Shown here: in pieces, positions 558 to 11,586 of the stretch
Position numbering within the stretch: position 1 is the stretch's first letter
Layout: every line of letters starts with the position of its first letter
Assembly: GCF_021919125.1 (NCBI RefSeq)
Contig: NZ_CP083439.1
Span: forward strand, 1,178,001 to 1,242,000
Length of the DNA stretch: 64,000 nt
Reading direction: 5' to 3'
DNA from: Clavibacter sp. A6099
GTDB taxonomy: Bacteria; Actinomycetota; Actinomycetes; Actinomycetales; Microbacteriaceae
The notes under the pieces: generated by a model
What the model was told of the DNA's origin: nothing
The model's input: only the letters and a program-made list of their open reading frames with translations
Database searches by the model: none
Position numbers and translations under genes: made by a program

Positions 558-1136
558 GTGACCCGATCCCCCCGCGCCTCCGCCGGCGACGAGCTCCGCA
601 CCATCGCCGCGGCGCGCTTCGCCCGCGACGGGTTCCAGGCGACCTCGCTGCAGCAGATCGCGGACGAGGCGGGCTACTCGAAGTCGAGCGTGCTCTACCA
701 CTTCGCCTCCAAGGAGGCGTTGCTCGACGCCCTCCTCGAGCCGACGATCGACGCGCTCGCCGAGGTCATCGACCGCGCCGACTCGATCCGCGGGGACGAG
801 GACGCCAGGCGCCAGTTCGTCGAGCGCTTCATCGACTTCCTCCTGCTGCACCGGCACGAGGTGGCGCTGTTCATCACGCAGGGCCGCTCGCTCGGGCACC
901 TCGCCGTCATCGAGCGGGCCAACGACCTCGTGCGCGCGCTCGGCGAGACCGCGGGCGCGCTCGACAGCACGCTCGACCAGCTGCGCTTCGGCGTGGCGCT
1001 CGGCGGTGCGGCGTACATCCTCGCCGCGAGCGACGACTGGTCCACCAACGAACCGCTGCCCGACGACGAGATCAGGGCTGCTCTCGTCGTGGTCGTGGGG
1101 GAGCTCCTCGCCCCCCTCGGCACCCGCTCCGCCTGA
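558..1136 (+). CDS. TetR-family transcriptional regulator
   Basis: The protein has 192 residues, normal for the family. An N-terminal helix-turn-helix lies at about residues 26-60 with the typical core ADEAGYSKSSVLYHF, followed by an all-helical ligand-binding domain. The GTG start is supported by the -10 box TAGGCT at 546-551 lying exactly 6 nt upstream, a leaderless arrangement. A perfect palindrome precedes the promoter. The MMPL exporter gene starts 73 bp downstream on the same strand, so this is probably the local repressor that senses an exported compound. The ligand is unknown. Confidence 0.85.
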   Translation: MTRSPRASAGDELRTIAAARFARDGFQATSLQQIADEAGYSKSSVLYHFASKEALLDALLEPTIDALAEVIDRADSIRGDEDARRQFVERFIDFLLLHRHEVALFITQGRSLGHLAVIERANDLVRALGETAGALDSTLDQLRFGVALGGAAYILAASDDWSTNEPLPDDEIRAALVVVVGELLAPLGTRSA

Positions 1137-1209
1137 TCACGCTCCGCCCCCGCACGACCCCACGCGCACGTCCCACGCGCACGTCCCACGCAAGGAGAGC
1201 CACCAGCCC

Positions 1210-4164
1210 ATGGCCACGCTTCTGTACCGGCTCGGCCGGATCTCGTTCCTCCACCCGTGGCGCGTCGTCGCCGCGTGGATCCTCGTCCTCGGCATCCTGC
1301 TGGGCGGCGGCCTCGCGCTCGGCGGCAAGACCCAGGAGTCGTTCTCGATCCCGGGCACCGAGTCGCAGGAGGCCATCGACCGGCTCGCCGCCGTGTTCCC
1401 GCAGGCCGCGGGCGCGAGCGCGCAGATCGTGACCGAGTCACCGGCCGGGCAGAAGGTCACCGACGACGGCCCGAAGGCCGCCATCGACGCCACCGCGACG
1501 GCGGCGGGCGAGGTGCAGGGCGTCGCGACGGCGCTGTCCCCGTTCTCCGAGTACGCGACCGACGCGGTCTCCGACGACGGCACCGTGGCGATCACGACCG
1601 TGCAGTTCTCCGGCCAGAGCGACCAGGTGACGCCCGCGACGCTCGACGCGCTGAAGGAGTCGGCGCAGGCCGCGACGGACGCGGGCCTCACGGTCTCGTT
1701 CGGCGGCCAGGTGTTCCAGGACGTCCACTACGGCGTCACAGTCACCGAGGCGTTCGGCGTGCTGTTCGCGGGCCTCGTGCTCGTGCTCACGTTCGGGTCG
1801 ATGCTCGCGGCCGGCCTGCCGCTCATCGGCGCGCTCGTCGGCGTCGCGGCCTCTGCGGGCGCGCTCATGGCCGCCTCGAAGTTCGTCACGGTCTCGAGCG
1901 CGTCGCCGCTGCTGGCGGTGATGATCGGCCTCGCGGTCGGCATCGACTACGCCCTCTTCATCCTCATGCGGCACCGCACGCAGCTCGCCAACGGCATGCC
2001 CGTCGAGCGCTCGGCGGCGACCGCGGTGGCCACCGCTGGAAGCGCCGTGATCTTCGCGGGCGTGACGGTGATCATCGCGCTGCTCGGGCTGCTCGTCGTG
2101 CAGATCCCGTTCCTCACGGTGATGGGCCTCGGGGCGGCGTTCGCGGTGCTGCTCGCGATGGGCGTCGCGACGACGCTGCTGCCCGCGATGCTCGGCTTCG
2201 CGGGGGAGCGGCTCCGGCCGAAGGAGGGCTCGCGGGCCGCGCGCCGCGCGAAGGCGCAGGCCGAGGGGACGCAGCGCACGCTCGGCGCGCGCTGGGTGAA
2301 GGTCGTCACGAAGGTGCCGATCATCCCCGTCGTGATCGTCGTCGGGATCGCCGGCCTCCTCGCCGTGCCCGCGTCGCAGCTGCAGCTGGGGCTGCCGAGC
2401 GGGGCGACCCAGCCCGCCGGATCCACCAGCCGCGTCGCGTACGACACCGTCTCGGACGCGTTCGGCCCCGGCCACAACGGCCCGCTCGTCGTGCTCGTCG
2501 ACATCACGCAGACCACGGACCCGATCGGGGTGCTGGGGAGGATCGGCGACGAGATCCGAGGACTCGACGACGTGGCCTTCGTCGGCACCGGCACGCCGAA
2601 CCCGTCGGTCGACACCGCGATCATCCAGGTCGTGCCGGACAGCCCGCCCGAGTCGGCGGAGACGACGGCGCTCATGCAGTCGATCCGCGACCTCGCGCCC
2701 GGCCTGCAGGACCGCTACGACACGCGCGTCTCCGTCACGGGCACGACGGCCGTGCAGAACGACATCTCGCAGCGGCTCGACCAGGCGCTCGTGCCGTTCG
2801 GCATCGTGGTGGTGGGGCTGTCGATCCTCCTGCTGATGATCGTGTTCCGCTCGATCTTCGTGCCCGTGAAGGCCGCGGTCGGCTTCCTGCTGAGCGTCGT
2901 CGTGTCCTTCGGCACCGTGGTGCTGATCTTCCAGCAGGGCCTCTTCGCGGACGCGCTGGGCGTGACGCCCGGCCCGATCCTCAGCTTCATGCCGATCCTG
3001 CTCATGGCGATCCTGTTCGGCCTCGCCATGGACTACGAGGTGTTCCTCGTCTCCGGCATGCGCGAGGACTTCGTGCACCACGGGGACGCCAAGCGCGCGA
3101 TCGTCACGGGCTTCTCGGGCGCCGCGCGGGTGGTCACGGCCGCCGCGCTCATCATGTTCTTCGTCTTCGCGGCGTTCGTGCCGGAGGGCGCGGGCGTCAT
3201 CAAGACCATCGCGCTCGGCCTCGCCGTCGGCATCTTCTTCGACGCCTTCCTCGTGCGCATGACCCTCGTGCCCGCCGCCATGGCGCTGCTCGGGAAGCGG
3301 GCGTGGTGGATCCCGCGCTGGCTGGACCGCATCCTCCCGGACGTCGACATCGAGGGCGAGGGCCTCCGCGAGCACCAGGACGACGTCGACTGGGCCCACG
3401 CGTCCGGCGCGTCCGTCGCGGCGGAGCGGCTCGTCGTGGGCGTCCCGGGACGCAGGCTCCTGCCCGTCGACCTGAGCGCCCCGGCCGGATCCCTCGTGCT
3501 CGTCGAGGGCGCGGTGGCCGACCGACGCCTCCTCGGCGCCACGCTGGGCGCCCGGCTCGCGCCGCTGTCCGGCCGCGCGCACGTCGCCGGCCACCCGCTC
3601 GCCTCCGAGGCCGGCCGCGTGCTCACGAGCGTCGCGATGGCCGACCTCGGCCGCGTCGACCGGGTCGACTCCGGCGTCACGGTCGGAGACCTGCTGGCCG
3701 AGCGCATCGACCTGTCCGAGCCGATGGGACGCCGCCGCGGCGCCCGGGCGCGCCAGGCCGAGTGGTGGGAACGCATCGACCAGGCGGCCGACGCGGCGGG
3801 AGCCCGGCGCATCGGCGCCGACGACCCCGTGGGATCGCTCCTGCCGCTCGAGCGCGCCATCGCCCTGACCGCCGTCGCCGCCGCGGGACGCGCGCCCGTG
3901 CTCGTGCTCGACGTGGTGGATCCGTTCCCGGACGCCGCCGCCGAGCGCGCGTTCCTCGCCGCCCTGCCCGCGCTCGTCCACGAGAGCACGACCGTCCTGC
4001 TGGGCGCGCCGTGGTTCCCGGACGAGCACGGGATCCCGGGCAGGCCCACCGTGCGCCTCCGCCTCGTCGCCGGCGACGCGCCTGCGCCCGCTCTCGACGC
4101 CGACGCCGATGAGCGCCCCGACATCGACCAGCCCGTCACGACCGGCAAGGAGACCCGCCGATGA
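1210..4164 (+). CDS. MMPL/RND-family exporter with C-terminal degenerate ABC-ATPase-like domain
   Basis: The protein has 984 residues. Residues 1-690 are a classic MMPL transporter: one N-terminal helix, a long external loop, five helices, then a repeat of this unit, with signature segments GLAVGIDYALF (about 240) and FGLAMDYEVF (about 602). MMPL proteins export lipids or drugs using the proton gradient. Residues about 739-950 are not MMPL-like. They follow the layout of an ABC ATPase (SLVLVEG where Walker A should start, LPLERAIALTAVAA at the signature position, APVLVLDVVDPF like Walker B), but the GKS/T of Walker A and the catalytic Glu are absent. The start is the ATG at 1210, 12 nt after AGGAG; upstream in-frame codons lie inside tetR. 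The stop overlaps the next start (ATGA). Confidence 0.85.
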   Translation: MATLLYRLGRISFLHPWRVVAAWILVLGILLGGGLALGGKTQESFSIPGTESQEAIDRLAAVFPQAAGASAQIVTESPAGQKVTDDGPKAAIDATATAAGEVQGVATALSPFSEYATDAVSDDGTVAITTVQFSGQSDQVTPATLDALKESAQAATDAGLTVSFGGQVFQDVHYGVTVTEAFGVLFAGLVLVLTFGSMLAAGLPLIGALVGVAASAGALMAASKFVTVSSASPLLAVMIGLAVGIDYALFILMRHRTQLANGMPVERSAATAVATAGSAVIFAGVTVIIALLGLLVVQIPFLTVMGLGAAFAVLLAMGVATTLLPAMLGFAGERLRPKEGSRAARRAKAQAEGTQRTLGARWVKVVTKVPIIPVVIVVGIAGLLAVPASQLQLGLPSGATQPAGSTSRVAYDTVSDAFGPGHNGPLVVLVDITQTTDPIGVLGRIGDEIRGLDDVAFVGTGTPNPSVDTAIIQVVPDSPPESAETTALMQSIRDLAPGLQDRYDTRVSVTGTTAVQNDISQRLDQALVPFGIVVVGLSILLLMIVFRSIFVPVKAAVGFLLSVVVSFGTVVLIFQQGLFADALGVTPGPILSFMPILLMAILFGLAMDYEVFLVSGMREDFVHHGDAKRAIVTGFSGAARVVTAAALIMFFVFAAFVPEGAGVIKTIALGLAVGIFFDAFLVRMTLVPAAMALLGKRAWWIPRWLDRILPDVDIEGEGLREHQDDVDWAHASGASVAAERLVVGVPGRRLLPVDLSAPAGSLVLVEGAVADRRLLGATLGARLAPLSGRAHVAGHPLASEAGRVLTSVAMADLGRVDRVDSGVTVGDLLAERIDLSEPMGRRRGARARQAEWWERIDQAADAAGARRIGADDPVGSLLPLERAIALTAVAAAGRAPVLVLDVVDPFPDAAAERAFLAALPALVHESTTVLLGAPWFPDEHGIPGRPTVRLRLVAGDAPAPALDADADERPDIDQPVTTGKETRR

Positions 4165-6056
4165 CCACCCGCTCCGCACGCCGACGGCTCGCCGTCGCCC
4201 TCGTCGCGATCGTGCCCCTCGCGGTCGCCGGCCTCTTCATCGGCTCGCTCTCGGACGTCGCGAAGGGCGTCGAGCGGGTGCCCGCCGCCATCGTCAACCA
4301 GGACGAGATCGTGCAGCAGAAGGCCCAGGACGGCACCGAGTCGCCCGTGCTCGCCGGACGCCTGCTCGTCACGCAGCTGACCAGCGACGACAACCAGGCC
4401 TTCGACTGGACCATCACCAACGCCGACGAGGCCCAGAGGATGCTCGACGACGGCGAGGTCTACGCGGTGCTCACGGTGCCGAAGGACTTCTCCTCCTCGA
4501 TCGTGTCGCTGTCGACGGACGCCCCGAAGCGCGCCGAGATCAGCGTGAAGACGGACGACGCGCACGGCTACCTGACGGGCGCGGCCACCCAGGCCGTCGG
4601 CGTCGGCATGACGAGCGTGTTCGGCAACGCCATCACGTCGCAGTTCGTCTCCGGCATCTACACGACCTTCGGCGGCCTCAAGGGGTCGCTGACGGATGCG
4701 GGAACGGGCGCCGACAAGCTCGCCGACGGGGCCACGCAGCTCTCGACGGGCGCGACCGCGCTCGGCGACGGGATCACGAAGCTCGGCGACGGCGTCGGGC
4801 AGTCCCAGCAGGGCGCGTCGAAGCTCGCGGACGGCCTGGGCGCCTACACGGGCGGCGTCTCGCAGCTCTCCTCCGGGCTCGACCGGCTGCAGACCGGGGC
4901 GGCCGGGCTCTCGCAGGTGTCCGACGGCGTCGGGCAGTACGCGGGCGGGGCCGGGCAGATCGCGGCGCAGGTGGCCGGGCTCCGACAGCAGCTCGCCGCG
5001 AACCCGCAGAGCGCGCCCATCGCGGCGCAGCTCGAGCCGCTCGAGCAGGGCCTCGACCAGTACGCGGCACAGGGGCAGACCCTCGCGACGCAGGCGGCCG
5101 CCGGGATCCAGGGCGTCCAGCAGGGCATCGGCCAGAGCGCTTCGGGCGCGTCGCAGCTCGCGGCCAACGGCGGCGCGCTGGTCTCCGGCGCGCGCCAGCT
5201 CAGCGACGGCCTCGGCCAGCTGCGCACCGGCACGACCTCGGCGGCGACGGGCGCGGGCGACCTCGCCACGGGTGCCGACGGGCTGGCGTCCGGCGCGACC
5301 GAGCTGGGCTCCGGCCTCACCGAGGGCGCCGAGCAGATCCCGTCGCTCGACGCCGACCAGGCGTCCTCCGCCTCGGGCGTCGTCGCGGATCCCGTCGGCC
5401 TCACGGTCGAGCGCGAGAACGAGATCGGCAGCCCGGGCGACGCGATCGCCGCGATCTTCGTGCCGATCGGCCTCTGGCTCGGCGCGTTCGCGACCTTCCT
5501 CGTGCTGCGCCCGGCCGCTCGACGCCTCCTCGCGTCCTCGGCCGCGACCGGCCGCGTGATGGGGCGCGTGCTCGCGCGCGCCGCCCTCATCGCGCTCGCC
5601 CAGGTGGTGCTGCTCGTCGCGCTCGTGCACGCCGCGCTCGGGCTGTCCCTCGCGCTGCTGCCCGCGACGCTCGGGTTCGCGGCCGTCACGGCGGCGGCCT
5701 TCACGGCGATCCACTACCTGCTCCGGCAGGCGTTCGGGCGCGCGGGGCTCGTGGTGTCGCTGATCCTGCTGGCCATCCAGGCCGCGGCGATGGGCGGGGT
5801 GATCCCGCTGCAGCTCGTGGCCGCGCCGTTCCAGGCGATCAGCCCGTTCCTGCCGCTCACCTACGCGGCGTCGGGCATGCAGGCGATCATCGCGGGCGGC
5901 GCCCCGGGCGTGGCGTGGGGCGCGGCGGGCGCGCTCGCGCTCTTCCTGCTGCTGAGCCTCGCGGTGTCGTACCTCGTGACGCGGCGCTCGCGCCGCGCGA
6001 AGAGCCTCGGGCTCGTGCCCGGGACGGCGCCGTCCTCGGTCGCCGTCGCCGTCTGA
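4161..6056 (+). CDS. YhgE/Pip-family membrane protein (ABC-2 permease-like)
   Basis: The protein has 631 residues. An N-terminal helix is followed by an extracellular region containing VNQDE, typical of YhgE/Pip proteins. Residues about 180-400 are a run of Gly-rich, coiled-coil-like repeats of the form LxxGxxxLxDG (for example GATALGDGITKLGDG). Residues about 425-631 hold roughly five membrane helices resembling an ABC-2 permease. Family members include phage-infection protein Pip and the type VII factor EsaA. The ATG overlaps the MMPL stop by 4 nt, which implies coupled translation and a shared function. No separate ATPase gene is visible, and the only ATPase-like sequence is the tail of the MMPL protein. 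Confidence 0.85.
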   Translation: MTTRSARRRLAVALVAIVPLAVAGLFIGSLSDVAKGVERVPAAIVNQDEIVQQKAQDGTESPVLAGRLLVTQLTSDDNQAFDWTITNADEAQRMLDDGEVYAVLTVPKDFSSSIVSLSTDAPKRAEISVKTDDAHGYLTGAATQAVGVGMTSVFGNAITSQFVSGIYTTFGGLKGSLTDAGTGADKLADGATQLSTGATALGDGITKLGDGVGQSQQGASKLADGLGAYTGGVSQLSSGLDRLQTGAAGLSQVSDGVGQYAGGAGQIAAQVAGLRQQLAANPQSAPIAAQLEPLEQGLDQYAAQGQTLATQAAAGIQGVQQGIGQSASGASQLAANGGALVSGARQLSDGLGQLRTGTTSAATGAGDLATGADGLASGATELGSGLTEGAEQIPSLDADQASSASGVVADPVGLTVERENEIGSPGDAIAAIFVPIGLWLGAFATFLVLRPAARRLLASSAATGRVMGRVLARAALIALAQVVLLVALVHAALGLSLALLPATLGFAAVTAAAFTAIHYLLRQAFGRAGLVVSLILLAIQAAAMGGVIPLQLVAAPFQAISPFLPLTYAASGMQAIIAGGAPGVAWGAAGALALFLLLSLAVSYLVTRRSRRAKSLGLVPGTAPSSVAVAV

Positions 6057-6147
6057 CGATCCGCCCGGCGGCCGCACCGCGTCGGCCGGTCGCCGGGTGG
6101 ATCCGTCCACAGCGCGTCCCGTGCGCGACCTCGAGCCCGTAGTGTCC

Positions 6148-6162
6148 TGAGAACCATTCTCA
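6148..6162. promoter_or_regulatory. Zur-like (zinc) operator
   Basis: TGAGAACCATTCTCA is a 15-bp interrupted palindrome with 6-bp arms, close to the actinobacterial Zur-box pattern TGANAAN(N)NTTNTCA. It lies just after a -10-like TAGTGT (6140-6145) and 13 bp before the start codon, so a bound repressor would cover the transcription start. Fur-type or other repressors with similar sites cannot be excluded. Confidence 0.6.
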
Positions 6163-6175
6163 GAAAGCGGGCACC

Positions 6176-7486
6176 ATGCGCATCCCCTCCCTCCTCGTCG
6201 CCGGCGTCGCCGCCCTCGGCCTCCTCGCGGGCTCGCTCGCGGCACCCGCCCCTGCAGCGGAGGCGGCCCCGCGCGCCCGCTGGCTGCTCGTGGCCGACCC
6301 CGCCGCGCACGCCGTCTCGGTCGCCGAGGCCTCGACGGGGCGCATCACGGGCTCTCTTCCCGGGGCCGTCCTCGGCACGCACGCCGGCGTGATCCAGATG
6401 GGCCACGGCCGGGTGGCCTTCGTGGACGAGGCCGGGCCGCGGCTCGACGTCGTCGATATCGGCTCGTCGTCCGTCCCGCGCATCGCCTCATCCACGCCGA
6501 TCCCGGCGGTCGCCGGCGCGTGGACGCGCGCGGGATGGATCTCGGACGACCCCGGCCACCGCTTCGTCGCGGTCGGCTCGGACATCGACGGATCCACCAC
6601 GCAGCAGGTCACGGTCGTGGACACCCGCAGGCTGCTGGCGCGCACCGCGACCATCCGCACGAGCGAGGTGACCCTCGCCACGACGGGGGAGCGCGGCACC
6701 GAGGAGATGGAGACGTTCCTCGTCGGATCGCCGCTCCGGCTCGTCGTGACCGCGGGCGGTCGCCTCGACTCCTACGACGTGTCGGCGATCCTCGGCGGCG
6801 ACACCGCGCCGGCGCCCGTGACGACGACCCCGCTCGGCGCGTACCCGCACGGCCCGGTCGCGGATGCGCGGGGCACCGTGATCGGCTCGACGCTGCATGA
6901 CGGGATCGAGACGGTGCCGCTCACCCGCGGCGGCTTCGGCGCGTCCGTCTCCCGGCCCTACCCCGAGCCCGCCGTGCAGAGCTACCGCCCGCGCATGGCG
7001 CCCGACGGCGAGACGGCCGTGGGCACGCAGACCGGCACCGGGCCGGGCGCGCCCACGCTGCTGACGTCGTCGTCGATGCGCGGCGCCGGCGTCGTGAGCG
7101 TCGCGCTCGGCTCCGGCGCGTCGACGCGCGCGGTCGTGACCCCTGGCTACGCGGCCGCGGTCGTGACGGCCGGCGGCGTGGACACGCTGTCCCTCGTCGC
7201 CCGCGGACGCGCCGGCCTGTACGACGGCGCGATCACGTCGGTGCGGCTGCCCGCCCTCGGACAGACGCAGGGCGCCGGATCCGCCGCGCGGTTCCTCGCC
7301 GCGTCCGACGACGGATCCGAGCTGTTCCTGTCCCGCGCGGGCACGGGGTCCGTCCTCGAGATCGACGTCTCCGGCACGACGGCGACGGTGCGCGGCACGA
7401 TCGCCGTGCCGTCCGCGCTCGCCGACGGCGGCTACCTCGCCACGGTGGATCCGCACCAGCGGCCCTACGACCTCAGCGGGCGCTGA
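6176..7486 (+). CDS. Secreted beta-propeller-like protein, possible AztD-type zinc metallochaperone
   Basis: The protein has 436 residues. It begins with a clear Sec signal peptide (MR, a hydrophobic core, cleavage near AEA-AP at about residue 34). The rest has short beta-strand repeats (LLVADP, VAFVDEAG, VVDIG) as in YVTN/WD-like propellers. The segment GTHAGVIQMGHGRVAFVDE resembles the zinc chaperone AztD, and a Zur-like box sits directly upstream. Together these suggest a zinc-starvation-induced extracytoplasmic zinc carrier, although no AztABC transporter is next to it. The start is the ATG at 6176, 13 bp after the box. A perfect terminator hairpin follows the stop. Function is inferred. 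Confidence 0.65.
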   Translation: MRIPSLLVAGVAALGLLAGSLAAPAPAAEAAPRARWLLVADPAAHAVSVAEASTGRITGSLPGAVLGTHAGVIQMGHGRVAFVDEAGPRLDVVDIGSSSVPRIASSTPIPAVAGAWTRAGWISDDPGHRFVAVGSDIDGSTTQQVTVVDTRRLLARTATIRTSEVTLATTGERGTEEMETFLVGSPLRLVVTAGGRLDSYDVSAILGGDTAPAPVTTTPLGAYPHGPVADARGTVIGSTLHDGIETVPLTRGGFGASVSRPYPEPAVQSYRPRMAPDGETAVGTQTGTGPGAPTLLTSSSMRGAGVVSVALGSGASTRAVVTPGYAAAVVTAGGVDTLSLVARGRAGLYDGAITSVRLPALGQTQGAGSAARFLAASDDGSELFLSRAGTGSVLEIDVSGTTATVRGTIAVPSALADGGYLATVDPHQRPYDLSGR

Positions 7487-7511
7487 CCGCGGGATCGCGA
7501 CCGCGCACGAC

Positions 7512-7541
7512 GAGGGCCGCCCGGATGCCCGGGCGGCCCTC
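7512..7541. terminator. Hairpin terminator between convergent genes
   Basis: A perfect 13-bp GC stem (7512-7524 with 7529-7541) and 4-nt loop, without a T-tract, lies between two convergent genes and can serve both. Confidence 0.75.
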
Positions 7542-7563
7542 GCCGTGCGTCGTGCGCGAGCCG

Positions 7564-7866
7564 CTACAGCGCGAGCGCGATGCGCCCGCTGAACACGCGC
7601 GTCACGGGCGCCGCGGCCAGCACCTCGCCGAGGCGCGCGGTGCCCTCGGGCGTGGCACGCCAGGCGACGTACGCGTCGTGGTCGGCGGTGGACGCCCACT
7701 GCTCCACGACGACCATGCGGGCGGGGTCGGCGTCGTCGACGAGGACCTCGAGGCCCTCGTTGCCCGCGAAGGCGCGCGTGGCCTGCAGGGTCTCGGCGAG
7801 GACGTCGGCGACGTCGGCCAGGCGGCTCTCGTCGACCTGGATCTCGAGGTGCACGGTGGTGCTCAT
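7564..7866 (-). CDS. Antibiotic biosynthesis monooxygenase (ABM) family protein
   Basis: This small protein has 100 residues, the usual size of a single ferredoxin-like ABM domain. It has the family pattern of an N-terminal strand (STTVHLEIQV), a central VVVEQWASTADHDAYVAW segment, and a C-terminal strand. Members are quinol monooxygenases, haem degraders, or enzymes acting on small aromatics; nothing here fixes the substrate. The start is the ATG at 7866; in-frame upstream codons give an Arg/Pro-rich, non-family sequence. It is a single gene, converging on the propeller gene. Confidence 0.75.
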   Translation of the reverse strand: MSTTVHLEIQVDESRLADVADVLAETLQATRAFAGNEGLEVLVDDADPARMVVVEQWASTADHDAYVAWRATPEGTARLGEVLAAAPVTRVFSGRIALAL

Positions 7867-8041
7867 GGTGTCTCCGGTCCCGACGTCGGGCGGGCTGGGC
7901 CTGGCGCGACGTCGATCATGTGCGGGGGACGTTCCCCTGCCCCATCCAACCCCTCGCGGGTGCGCGGCACTCCCGGCGGGCACGCGCGGGCGTGTCGGCG
8001 AGGGCGGGAGGCGCGGACGCCCGATCGGGACGCCCGACGGA

Positions 8042-8917
8042 TCACCGGTCGCGACGGAGCGCGGTGCGGAGCCGCTGGTACCCGGACACCACGGGCGGCG
8101 CGACGGGCGTCTTCTCGGGCGCGGTGTCGAGCCGGAGCTGCCGCTGCGCGAACTCGCGCGTCTCGATGAGCATGGCGAGCCGCTGCTCCTCGGTCTTGGC
8201 CTTGCGGGTGTTGACCTCGGCGACGACGCCGCCCTGCCAGCCCTGCTCCGCGAGCCAGCGCAGCGTCTCGGCGACGGGCTGCGTGCCGCGGCCGGGGAGG
8301 AGGTGCTCGTCGAGGATCCGGCCGTCGTCCTGCGAGCCGGATCCGTCGCACAGGTGCACGTGGCGCAGGCGCGGGCCGAGGGCCTTGGCCATCTCGAGGG
8401 CGTCCTGGCCGGAGAGCGAGGCGTGCGAGAAGTCGAGGGTGGTGGCGTCGCAGTCCATGTCGCGCGGATCCCAGCCCGGCGCGTACGCCTTCATGCTGCG
8501 GCCGGCGACCTGCCACGGGAACATGTTCTCGACGGCGATCTCGACGCCCGTCTCCGTCTGGACGGAGCGGACGATCTCGAGGAACGACTCCGCGTAGCCG
8601 GCCTGCCAGCGGAACGGCGGGTGCACCACGACGGCGGGCGCGCCGACCGCGCGCGCGAGCTCGGCGGACCGCTCCAGCTTCACCTTCGGGTCGCGGCCCC
8701 ACACGAAGTGGGTGAGCAGCAGCACGGGAGCGTGGACGGAGAGGATCGGCAGGCCGTGCTTCTCCGACAGGGCGCGGAGCGCGTCGGCGTCCTGGGTGAC
8801 CTCGTCGTTCGTCACCATGATCTCGACGCCGTCGAAGCCGGCGCGCTTGGCCATCACGAAGGCGTTCTCGACGGGCTGGGGGTACACGCAGGTCGTGCTC
8901 ATGCCTACTCGGATCAC
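8042..8917 (-). CDS. Sugar phosphate isomerase/epimerase (AP endonuclease 2-like TIM barrel)
   Basis: The protein has 291 residues, a normal length for the family. Visible motifs include the first barrel strand (GMSTTCVYPQ), GFDGVEIMV, LPILSVHAP, VEIAVENMF, TLDFSHASL and RHVHLCDG, the metal-ligand strands of xylose-isomerase-like barrels. It probably isomerises or epimerises a sugar or cyclitol; the substrate is unknown. GTG at 8917 is preferred over the ATG at 8902. It adds the first barrel strand residues and lies 7 nt after a -10 box TAGGGT (8925-8930 on this strand), as in the other leaderless genes here. It is divergent from the fructosamine kinase gene. Confidence 0.78.
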   Translation of the reverse strand: MIRVGMSTTCVYPQPVENAFVMAKRAGFDGVEIMVTNDEVTQDADALRALSEKHGLPILSVHAPVLLLTHFVWGRDPKVKLERSAELARAVGAPAVVVHPPFRWQAGYAESFLEIVRSVQTETGVEIAVENMFPWQVAGRSMKAYAPGWDPRDMDCDATTLDFSHASLSGQDALEMAKALGPRLRHVHLCDGSGSQDDGRILDEHLLPGRGTQPVAETLRWLAEQGWQGGVVAEVNTRKAKTEEQRLAMLIETREFAQRQLRLDTAPEKTPVAPPVVSGYQRLRTALRRDR

Positions 8918-9065
8918 GTCGGCGACCCTACCTGCCGGCCCTGTGCCCGCGGGGTACGCGGGTGGTCCGGCGCGTGTCGGGTGCGCGACGCGGACAGCGG
9001 CGGTCGGCATGCTGGATGCGACGGGAGGGCGGCCGGGGCGCCGCCCGCGAGGCGAGGGAGCGGGC

Positions 9066-9890
9066 ATGGCGGCTGCGGGATCGGACGGGCACGGTGGCGC
9101 GGAGGCGTTCCGGAAGGAGCGGCCGGATGCGCCGCGCGGCTTCTTCGAGGCCGAGGCGGCCGGGCTCGCGTGGCTGGCGGAGGCGGAGCCCGCCGGGGGA
9201 GCGCGGGTGGTGCGGGTGATCCACGTCGCGCCGGGCCGCATCGACCTCGAGCGGCTCGCGCCCGCCCGGCCGACGCGCCAGGCAGCTCGCGCGCTCGGCA
9301 CGGCGCTCGCCGTCACGCACGACGCGGGCGCGCCCGCGTTCGGCTCGCCGCCCGCCGGGCTCGACGGCCCGGCCTTCATCGGGCGGCAGCCGCTGTCGGT
9401 GCGCGACGCGGCCGTCGAGGAGGACGGCGCGGGGGAGGGCTGGGGCGCCTGGTACGCCCGCGAGCGCGTGCTGCCGTACCTCCGCCGCGCGGTCGACGCG
9501 GGCGGCGTCACCTCGGCCCAGGCGGCCGACGTGGAGCGCGCGTGCGACGTCGCCGCCGATGGCCGGTTCGACGACCAGGTCCCGCCCGCTCGGATCCACG
9601 GCGACCTCTGGGCGGGCAACGTGCAGTGGACGGACGCCGGCGCGGTCCTCATCGACCCGGCCGCGCACGGCGGCCACCGCGAGACCGACCTCGCGATGCT
9701 CGCGCTCTTCGGCTGCCCCGGCCTCGACGACCTCCTCGGCGCCTACGCGGACACCGGATCCCTCGCGCCGGGGTGGCGGGGACGCGTGCCGCTGCACCAG
9801 CTGCATCCGCTCGCCGTCCACGCCGCCTCGCACGGCCCGGCGTACGGCGACGCGCTGCACGACGCGGCCCGCGCGGTGCTCCGGATGTGA
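9066..9890 (+). CDS. Fructosamine kinase family protein
   Basis: The protein has 274 residues with the fructosamine/ketosamine-3-kinase fold, a relative of aminoglycoside phosphotransferases. The catalytic loop IHGDLWAGNV and metal-binding VLIDPAAHGGHRETDLAM are clear. The N-terminal half carries FFEAEAAGLAWLAEA, typical of the family. These enzymes phosphorylate Amadori products so that the sugar leaves the protein amine. The ATG at 9066 follows a GGGAG site by 5-6 nt; an in-frame ATG at 9009 is the alternative. It is divergent from the sugar isomerase, possibly both acting in handling damaged or unusual sugars (inference). Confidence 0.83.
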   Translation: MAAAGSDGHGGAEAFRKERPDAPRGFFEAEAAGLAWLAEAEPAGGARVVRVIHVAPGRIDLERLAPARPTRQAARALGTALAVTHDAGAPAFGSPPAGLDGPAFIGRQPLSVRDAAVEEDGAGEGWGAWYARERVLPYLRRAVDAGGVTSAQAADVERACDVAADGRFDDQVPPARIHGDLWAGNVQWTDAGAVLIDPAAHGGHRETDLAMLALFGCPGLDDLLGAYADTGSLAPGWRGRVPLHQLHPLAVHAASHGPAYGDALHDAARAVLRM

Positions 9891-9990
9891 CGCGGGCGGA
9901 CGCGCGACCCCCGGTCAGACGCGGGTGAGGCTGGTAGCCTCGATCCACCGAGCAGGTACCACAGAGCTCTGCGCAACCGAGACGGGAACC

Positions 9991-11586
<1,596 letters not shown>

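Follow-up and report, generated by a model that had tools for sequence, protein, structure and literature searches.

Background

Resistance-nodulation-division (RND) pumps and ATP-binding cassette (ABC) transporters are usually treated as separate energy classes. The closest described case in which the two meet is the export of phthiocerol dimycocerosates (PDIM) by MmpL7 and DrrABC in Mycobacterium tuberculosis. In the published accounts, MmpL7 is suggested to act as a scaffold together with DrrABC, for which the authors say that direct evidence is still lacking; MmpL7 does not carry the proton-relay residues, and DrrA has Walker A and Walker B motifs, its signature departing from strict LSGGQ (PMC11539658, PMC8427324). 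Here we analyze a locus of Clavibacter sp. A6099 (contig NZ_CP083439.1, positions 1,178,001 to 1,242,000; this whole stretch of 64,000 nucleotides is hereafter the window), in which an RND pump of the MMPL family ends in what sequence profiles and fold comparisons identify as a decayed ABC nucleotide-binding domain (NBD), and is followed by a YhgE/Pip permease. The four named relatives found for the window are all Clavibacter, in line with this assignment. Like MmpL7-DrrABC, the locus is proposed to bring an MMPL/RND protein and an ABC-type component into one export pathway. With respect to what is suggested for the mycobacterial lipid exporter, the two are mirror images: the RND relay is intact and the NBD appears dead here, whereas there the relay is missing and the ABC component live. 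Furthermore, the NBD of the window is covalently part of the RND protein, and the permease is YhgE/Pip rather than DrrB/DrrC.

The YhgE/Pip and EsaA proteins of Firmicutes include the phage receptor Pip and the EsaA protein of type VII secretion, and we know of no NBD partner for them. The permease of the window resembles them in passing both TIGR03061 and TIGR03062. No description of an MMPL-NBD fusion or of an NBD-YhgE/Pip pair was found in the literature searched, which left preprints and most subscription journals outside its scope and included papers available in part. The papers found to name both YhgE and MMPL mention YhgE/Pip only in lists or in passing. An earlier examination of the window from its letters alone (hereafter the sequence-only reading) had suspected a hybrid exporter without known description, and our search agrees with it to that extent. 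The families of the individual parts are all known; as far as we searched, their covalent combination is undescribed, as is its graded decay.

Relationship of the tail to ABC nucleotide-binding domains

The sequence-only reading had proposed that the end of the MMPL protein (hereafter the tail; Table 1) is a dead ABC-like domain. On its own, the window tail has no ABC match in Pfam, NCBIfam or the PDB (phmmer). This single sequence therefore does not prove kinship with ABC proteins; the family profile does. The profile of 49 tails (A1) matched ABC NBDs in the PDB with a best E of 1.5e-7, and the best 60 of its 301 PDB matches were all ABC proteins. Profile-profile alignment with hhalign associated it over 217 columns (E 9.7e-35) with the profile of the stand-alone NBD-like proteins described below (A4), which in turn reached ABCA3 at E 9.2e-26. 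Pfam ABC_tran matched all 36 stand-alone proteins that were scanned. The AlphaFold2 model of the tail, built from four sequences only, is weak (predicted local distance difference test, pLDDT, 52); two comparisons with it each list 50 fold neighbors, all of them ABC proteins. Foldseek returned 20 matches at E <= 0.001, with low query-normalized TM-scores (0.25-0.42) and root mean square deviations up to 10.5. Profile, profile-profile and fold comparisons therefore agree, and confirm at the level of sequence and modeled fold that the tail is a decayed ABC NBD.

The motifs of an NBD were found in the correct order, as had been read from the letters: the 'SLVLVEG' strand, 'GRAHVAGHPL', a signature-like helix and the Walker-B-like 'APVLVLDVVD'. 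What has been lost is also clear from the alignment of 51 tails. None has a GK[ST] P-loop (GxxxxGK[ST]), which is shortened, and none has an LSGGQ signature. At the decayed P-loop there is an Arg in 50 of the 51 tails, with the two positions of an Arg-Arg pair kept in 50 and 46 of them; the Walker-B Asp is retained in 46, and the H-loop position is mostly Gly. Val replaces the catalytic Glu in the window tail, and the DE pattern that includes this Glu occurs in none of 107 YhgE-linked domains, as compared to 11 of 13 ABC proteins from the same genome. The absence of the Walker A GKS/T and of the catalytic Glu, both noted earlier, thus holds. These alignments indicate that the residues needed for ATP binding and hydrolysis have been lost, and that the tail would be unable to act as a normal ATPase.

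Association with YhgE/Pip permeases

We selected 74 MMPL loci for their tail, independent of their neighbors. In 73 of them, the next gene downstream on that strand is YhgE/Pip: this holds for 51 of the 52 loci whose tails are full-length, for all 20 whose tails are trimmed and for both fusions with an intact P-loop. At the only exception (L075), the same-strand YhgE/Pip match spans residues 297-623 only. Fifty wide loci of the family were sampled (40 plus 10, one of the 10 from the same genus), and all had a YhgE/Pip match. The pairing suggested by the sequence-only reading is therefore conserved across genomes.

The order-wide search with profile A1 (396 genomes) returned strong matches in short separate genes, and ordinary ABC ATPases scored lower. 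Among the 40 order-wide loci that we sampled, 38 are stand-alone NBD-like genes and 2 are fused. In 37 of the 38 stand-alone loci, YhgE/Pip is the very next gene and runs in the same direction; the remaining one (L221) is at a contig end. These proteins share the NBD lineage and the YhgE/Pip neighbor with the window, and differ from it in that the NBD is a gene of its own, often with GK[ST] (17 out of 38) or GR[ST] (21 out of 38; P-loop counts refer to the pattern anywhere within the domain). Their Walker B is commonly VVDDVD, and by eye none of those in the order has LSGGQ at the signature position. An MMPL match is present in the sampled stretch of two of the 38 loci (L213 and L216), and none was seen in the other 36. 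At L213, the stretch 4912-11548, under 7 kb long, combines a stand-alone NBD-like gene with YhgE/Pip and a separate MMPL gene, possibly as an unfused trio.

The same association is detectable at the class level. In 118 genomes (E <= 1e-15), 16 strong members turned up outside the order, and every one lies directly upstream of YhgE/Pip, the NBD being stand-alone in 14 of them and fused in 2. GR[ST] occurs at the P-loop in 10 of the 14 stand-alone NBDs, and no pattern was found in the other 4. The members include all seven sampled genomes of code f37/g205.

Two further forms of the fusion occur. At L321 and L322, which come from two genomes of family code f45, MMPL is fused to an NBD with intact GPSGSGKT and a VVDDAD Walker B, and YhgE/Pip follows. 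Fusion and an intact P-loop can therefore occur together. The architecture is identical to that of the window, YhgE/Pip neighbor included, and differs in its P-loop and Walker B; LSGGQ is likewise absent from both proteins. In 20 more loci, picked as MMPL frames with partial tail matches, the tail is trimmed: the N-terminal half of the NBD and the Walker-B-like strand stay, the helical subdomain is mostly or wholly gone, and none of the 20 has a P-loop pattern. The trimmed-tail profile matches the stand-alone NBD profile at E 3.5e-24. Against ABC kinship, a PDB search with this profile puts designed TIM barrels first (1.3e-10) and ABC proteins only behind them (1.4e-8). We take the former as noise from the alanine-rich second half, so that the ABC kinship of trimmed tails rests on the match to the stand-alone profile.

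To approach the link from the permease side, we relied on the 68 order-wide places above the TIGR03062 cut-off (99 genomes) and surveyed the best 40 that were previously unsampled; the 22 weakest places were left out, save that the window's own and that of genome G095 had been sampled earlier. An NBD-like gene lies upstream in 25 of the 40 loci by hidden Markov model (weakest match about E 1e-4) and in one more by eye (L273). No NBD-like neighbor was seen in 12 of the 40 (L288-L290 and L292-L300), and 2 more are cut by contig ends. The link between NBD and YhgE/Pip is common, not universal. The sequence-only reading had seen no ATPase for YhgE/Pip, and this now has an explanation. In other lineages the same NBD still forms a gene of its own immediately upstream of YhgE/Pip, so that the "missing ATPase" is the tail itself, the former NBD-like partner of the permease.

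Several genomes, G408, G478 and G496 among them, have two YhgE/Pip matches separated by about 2.7 kb, which might be paired permeases. The genome of the window has a second YhgE/Pip near C1:676 kb, with a separate P-loop-less NBD-like gene directly upstream (L197, 8214-8939, minus strand); a TetR-like frame, identified by eye, lies upstream of the latter (8879-9562).

Proposed mechanism

The explanation that we favor, to which we give about even chances as a whole, is that the TetR, MMPL-NBD and YhgE/Pip genes form a single export module, in which the dead NBD tethers YhgE/Pip to a proton pump. An NBD encoded by a gene of its own next to YhgE/Pip in other actinobacteria is here fused to the cytosolic end of the MMPL pump, with YhgE/Pip still as its neighbor. 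It may continue to grip the coupling loop on the cytosolic side of YhgE/Pip, as it would have done before, and would thereby tether an ABC-2-like permease to the pump, which would supply proton-driven energy. YhgE/Pip, with its long extracellular part, may be the partner or conduit for hydrophobic cargo across the thick cell wall; that this cargo would be a hydrophobic envelope molecule is our guess from the MMPL family. Such a hybrid-exporter mechanism is plausible.

That the tail may dock on YhgE/Pip is suggested by the gene neighborhood and by the predicted cytosolic loop after the second transmembrane segment (TM2) of YhgE/Pip, which we take to be where the coupling helix of ABC-2 permeases sits. 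In the alignment, this TM2-TM3 loop is conserved in YhgE/Pip proteins whose neighbor is a full-length tail, a P-loop-intact fusion or a stand-alone NBD. Furthermore, when the other two genes are removed, the divergence of the tail tracks that of YhgE (partial r 0.46, 0 out of 500 permutations) more closely than that of its own pump part (partial r 0.12, 47 out of 500 permutations). For this comparison 45 of the 50 family loci were used, those with no TetR, or with a YhgE or TetR match not starting near the N-terminus, being dropped.

Several observations weigh against this explanation. The loop is weakly conserved in the 20 loci with trimmed tails, and it is similar by eye in 5 of the 9 NBD-less YhgE/Pip proteins aligned there, being degenerate in some and not in all. 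The trimmed tails, with most of the helical subdomain gone, imply that the lineages which have them can do without a complete NBD. Finally, the partial r of the YhgE-TetR pair is higher (0.64), though no contact is expected between the two. Co-divergence is therefore not specific to contact and only suggestive.

We also put forward, as a tentative possibility on the unlikely side, a covalent RND-ABC hybrid exporter of actinobacteria: the NBD of YhgE/Pip would have moved onto the MMPL end with its P-loop intact, as it still is in two genomes outside the order, and then lost ATP binding stepwise and, in some lineages, most of the helical subdomain. The proton motive force would today drive an ABC-fold permease, with the dead NBD as the mechanical coupling. 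The forms described above can be arranged in a natural series, from stand-alone NBD with GKT to GR[ST], MMPL fusion with GKT, dead-NBD fusion and trimmed remnant. Such a series would show how a permease might switch its energy source yet keep the coupling part. The widespread and poorly understood YhgE/Pip proteins of actinobacteria would gain a definite partner domain, which makes their role testable.

Alternative explanations

Foremost among the alternatives, although we regard it as unlikely, the dead NBD would serve no partner but the MMPL pump, as a cytosolic domain for assembly or regulation, for instance of MMPL oligomers, and YhgE/Pip would be independent and merely co-transcribed. NBDs are dimerization modules, trimmed tails persist, and YhgE/Pip occurs with no NBD-like neighbor seen in 12 of the 40 loci surveyed. 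This is difficult to reconcile with a YhgE/Pip gene next to 73 of 74 tails chosen independent of it, and with the stand-alone NBD-like genes, which adjoin YhgE/Pip with no MMPL match seen in 36 of 38 order loci.

It is less probable still that the domain, dead for hydrolysis and alive for sensing, gates the pump by continuing to bind nucleotide or some other ligand, in a pocket altered by the Arg that now stands at the former P-loop. The near-invariant Arg-Arg and the frequent Walker-B Asp would fit such a sensor, as would the GR[ST] forms of 21 of the 38 stand-alone relatives. The shortened P-loop without GK[ST], the missing signature, the Gly at the H-loop position of most tails and the lack of a P-loop pattern in all 20 trimmed tails argue against it.

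We hold it to be quite improbable that the tail is a functionless fossil in decay. It is matched in all 18 genomes of the genus; in the family, matches at E <= 0.001 occur in at least 172 of the 398 genomes and at least 43 of the 85 genera (some matches being partial; family and order-wide searches scored up to six candidates per genome, which makes the family counts lower bounds). The best pump and tail matches share one open frame in 49 of the 50 family loci. The ratio of nonsynonymous to synonymous substitutions (dN/dS) of the tail, with genomes G002, G004 and G007 left out for split or cut-off tails, is 0.09-0.27 in 14 out of 14 comparisons with relatives, far below 1. It is 0.04-0.11 in the second half of the pump (residues 371-716), which points to a faster evolution of the tail as expected of a fossil, and 0.04-0.29 in the first 150 residues of YhgE/Pip. 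In the same direction, the tail is split into two frames or cut by a contig end in 3 of the 18 genus genomes, and pump and tail lie in different frames at L101. Overall, the tail is still under purifying selection as a domain. We also rejected an annotation artifact or frame error, the tail being kept across genus and family with dN/dS far below 1. Neither of the outcomes that would have refuted the sequence-only reading, a tail with no ABC-NBD match or one missing from close homologs, was observed.

The individual frame breaks may be sequencing errors or real frameshifts. At L101 the best pump and tail matches are in two overlapping frames (2904-7745 and 3707-5788, plus strand). In two of the 18 genus genomes the tail extends over two frames (L071 from 7980 in G007, and C1:1040339-1041144 in G002), by draft error or by real frameshift.

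A chance likeness to ABC NBDs, which the single window sequence without an ABC match in Pfam, NCBIfam and PDB sequences might have suggested, is ruled out for practical purposes by the ladder of profiles and by the profile-profile and fold matches.

Origin of the fusion

In the NBD tree, YhgE-linked domains are separated from 13 ABC NBDs of the same genome with support 100; the latter were chosen for having a P-loop, so that their 13 out of 13 P-loop count is by selection. Full-length fused tails lie on one side of a branch with support 99. All 46 dead fused domains group in the first tree (support 81). In the second, in which the two P-loop-intact fusions were added and near-duplicate stand-alone rows had been removed (17 names on the drop list), the same 46 group at 19, and the intact two join 11 stand-alone rows at 91. 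Constraining all 48 fused domains together gave a higher likelihood and was not rejected (p-AU 0.557). A single origin of all fusions is thus neither shown nor rejected, and that the fusion preceded the loss of the P-loop is plausible, not proven.

The pump half and the organization of the locus

The MMPL protein has both halves of an MMPL pump. According to PMC8427324, Asp/Tyr pairs carry the proton relay of MmpL proteins. The window protein and 48 of 50 relatives retain both Asp-Tyr patterns (of the two relatives that do not, one is truncated by its contig end), which supports the earlier assignment of a proton-driven RND type. That the tail is a generic MmpL C-terminal tail was rejected as a full account: the MMPL proteins of the same genome at L122 and L123 stop 49 and 13 residues past the MMPL match, respectively. 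In the window protein, the NCBIfam MmpL3 match goes no further than residue 709 in its best stretch.

Table 1. Features of the MMPL-YhgE/Pip locus, in coordinates of the window
Feature	Position	Strand	Basis
TetR-family regulator, first gene of the conserved trio	558..1136	+	TetR_N, E 2.3e-13
AAGGAG ribosome-binding site of the MMPL gene, before ATG	1192..1197	+	Read from sequence
MMPL gene, 984 aa	1210..4164	+	Open reading frame, as in the sequence-only reading
MMPL (RND) pump part, residues 1-716	1210..3357	+	Pfam MMPL PF03176, two stretches, E 1.1e-84
First Asp-Tyr pair, residues 246-247, proton-relay position of TM4	1945..1950	+	TM scan; role of pairs from PMC8427324
Second Asp-Tyr pair, residues 608-609, proton-relay position of TM10	3031..3036	+	TM scan; role of pairs as above
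Probable dead ABC NBD, about 250 residues (735-984) of the MMPL protein	3412..4161	+	Profile, profile-profile and fold comparisons
Strand and decayed Walker A region, SLVLVEGAVADRRLLGATLGARL, residues 761-783	3490..3558	+	Tail alignments
GRAHVAGHPL, conserved G-x-hydrophobic-x-G element past the P-loop helix, residues 788-797	3571..3600	+	Tail alignment
Decayed ABC signature position SLLPLERAIAL, residues 876-886	3835..3867	+	Tail alignments
Walker-B-like APVLVLDVVDPF, Asp retained, catalytic Glu gone, residues 895-906	3892..3927	+	Tail alignments
AAGGAG ribosome-binding site of YhgE/Pip, within the tail coding sequence	4147..4152	+	Read from sequence
YhgE/Pip family permease, 631 aa, ABC2_membrane_3 C-terminus, LxxG heptad repeats	4161..6056	+	TIGR03061, TIGR03062, TIGR03057 above cut-off; Pfam ABC2_membrane_3, E 2.5e-16
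Predicted cytosolic loop after TM2 of YhgE/Pip (RPAARRLLASSAATGR...), putative coupling-helix position of ABC-2 permeases	5508..5591	+	TM scan, alignment; topology and role predicted

The TetR, MMPL and YhgE/Pip genes are all on one strand, and a TetR homolog is present in 48 of the 50 family loci. The boundaries first read for the MMPL and YhgE/Pip genes are correct, as is their overlap of 4 nucleotides (ATGA). The YhgE/Pip protein (P0002) scored above the curated NCBIfam cut-offs of both models (124.2 bits versus 96.15 for TIGR03061, 156.8 versus 102.2 for TIGR03062) and matched Pfam ABC2_membrane_3, in agreement with its identification as an ABC-2-like permease. Elsewhere in the same genome, the tail-less MMPL paralog at L122 (3078-5729, minus strand; C1:139-142 kb) joins the full-length fused group in the MMPL tree with support 99 on a branch of 2.86, possibly by tail loss or long-branch pull.

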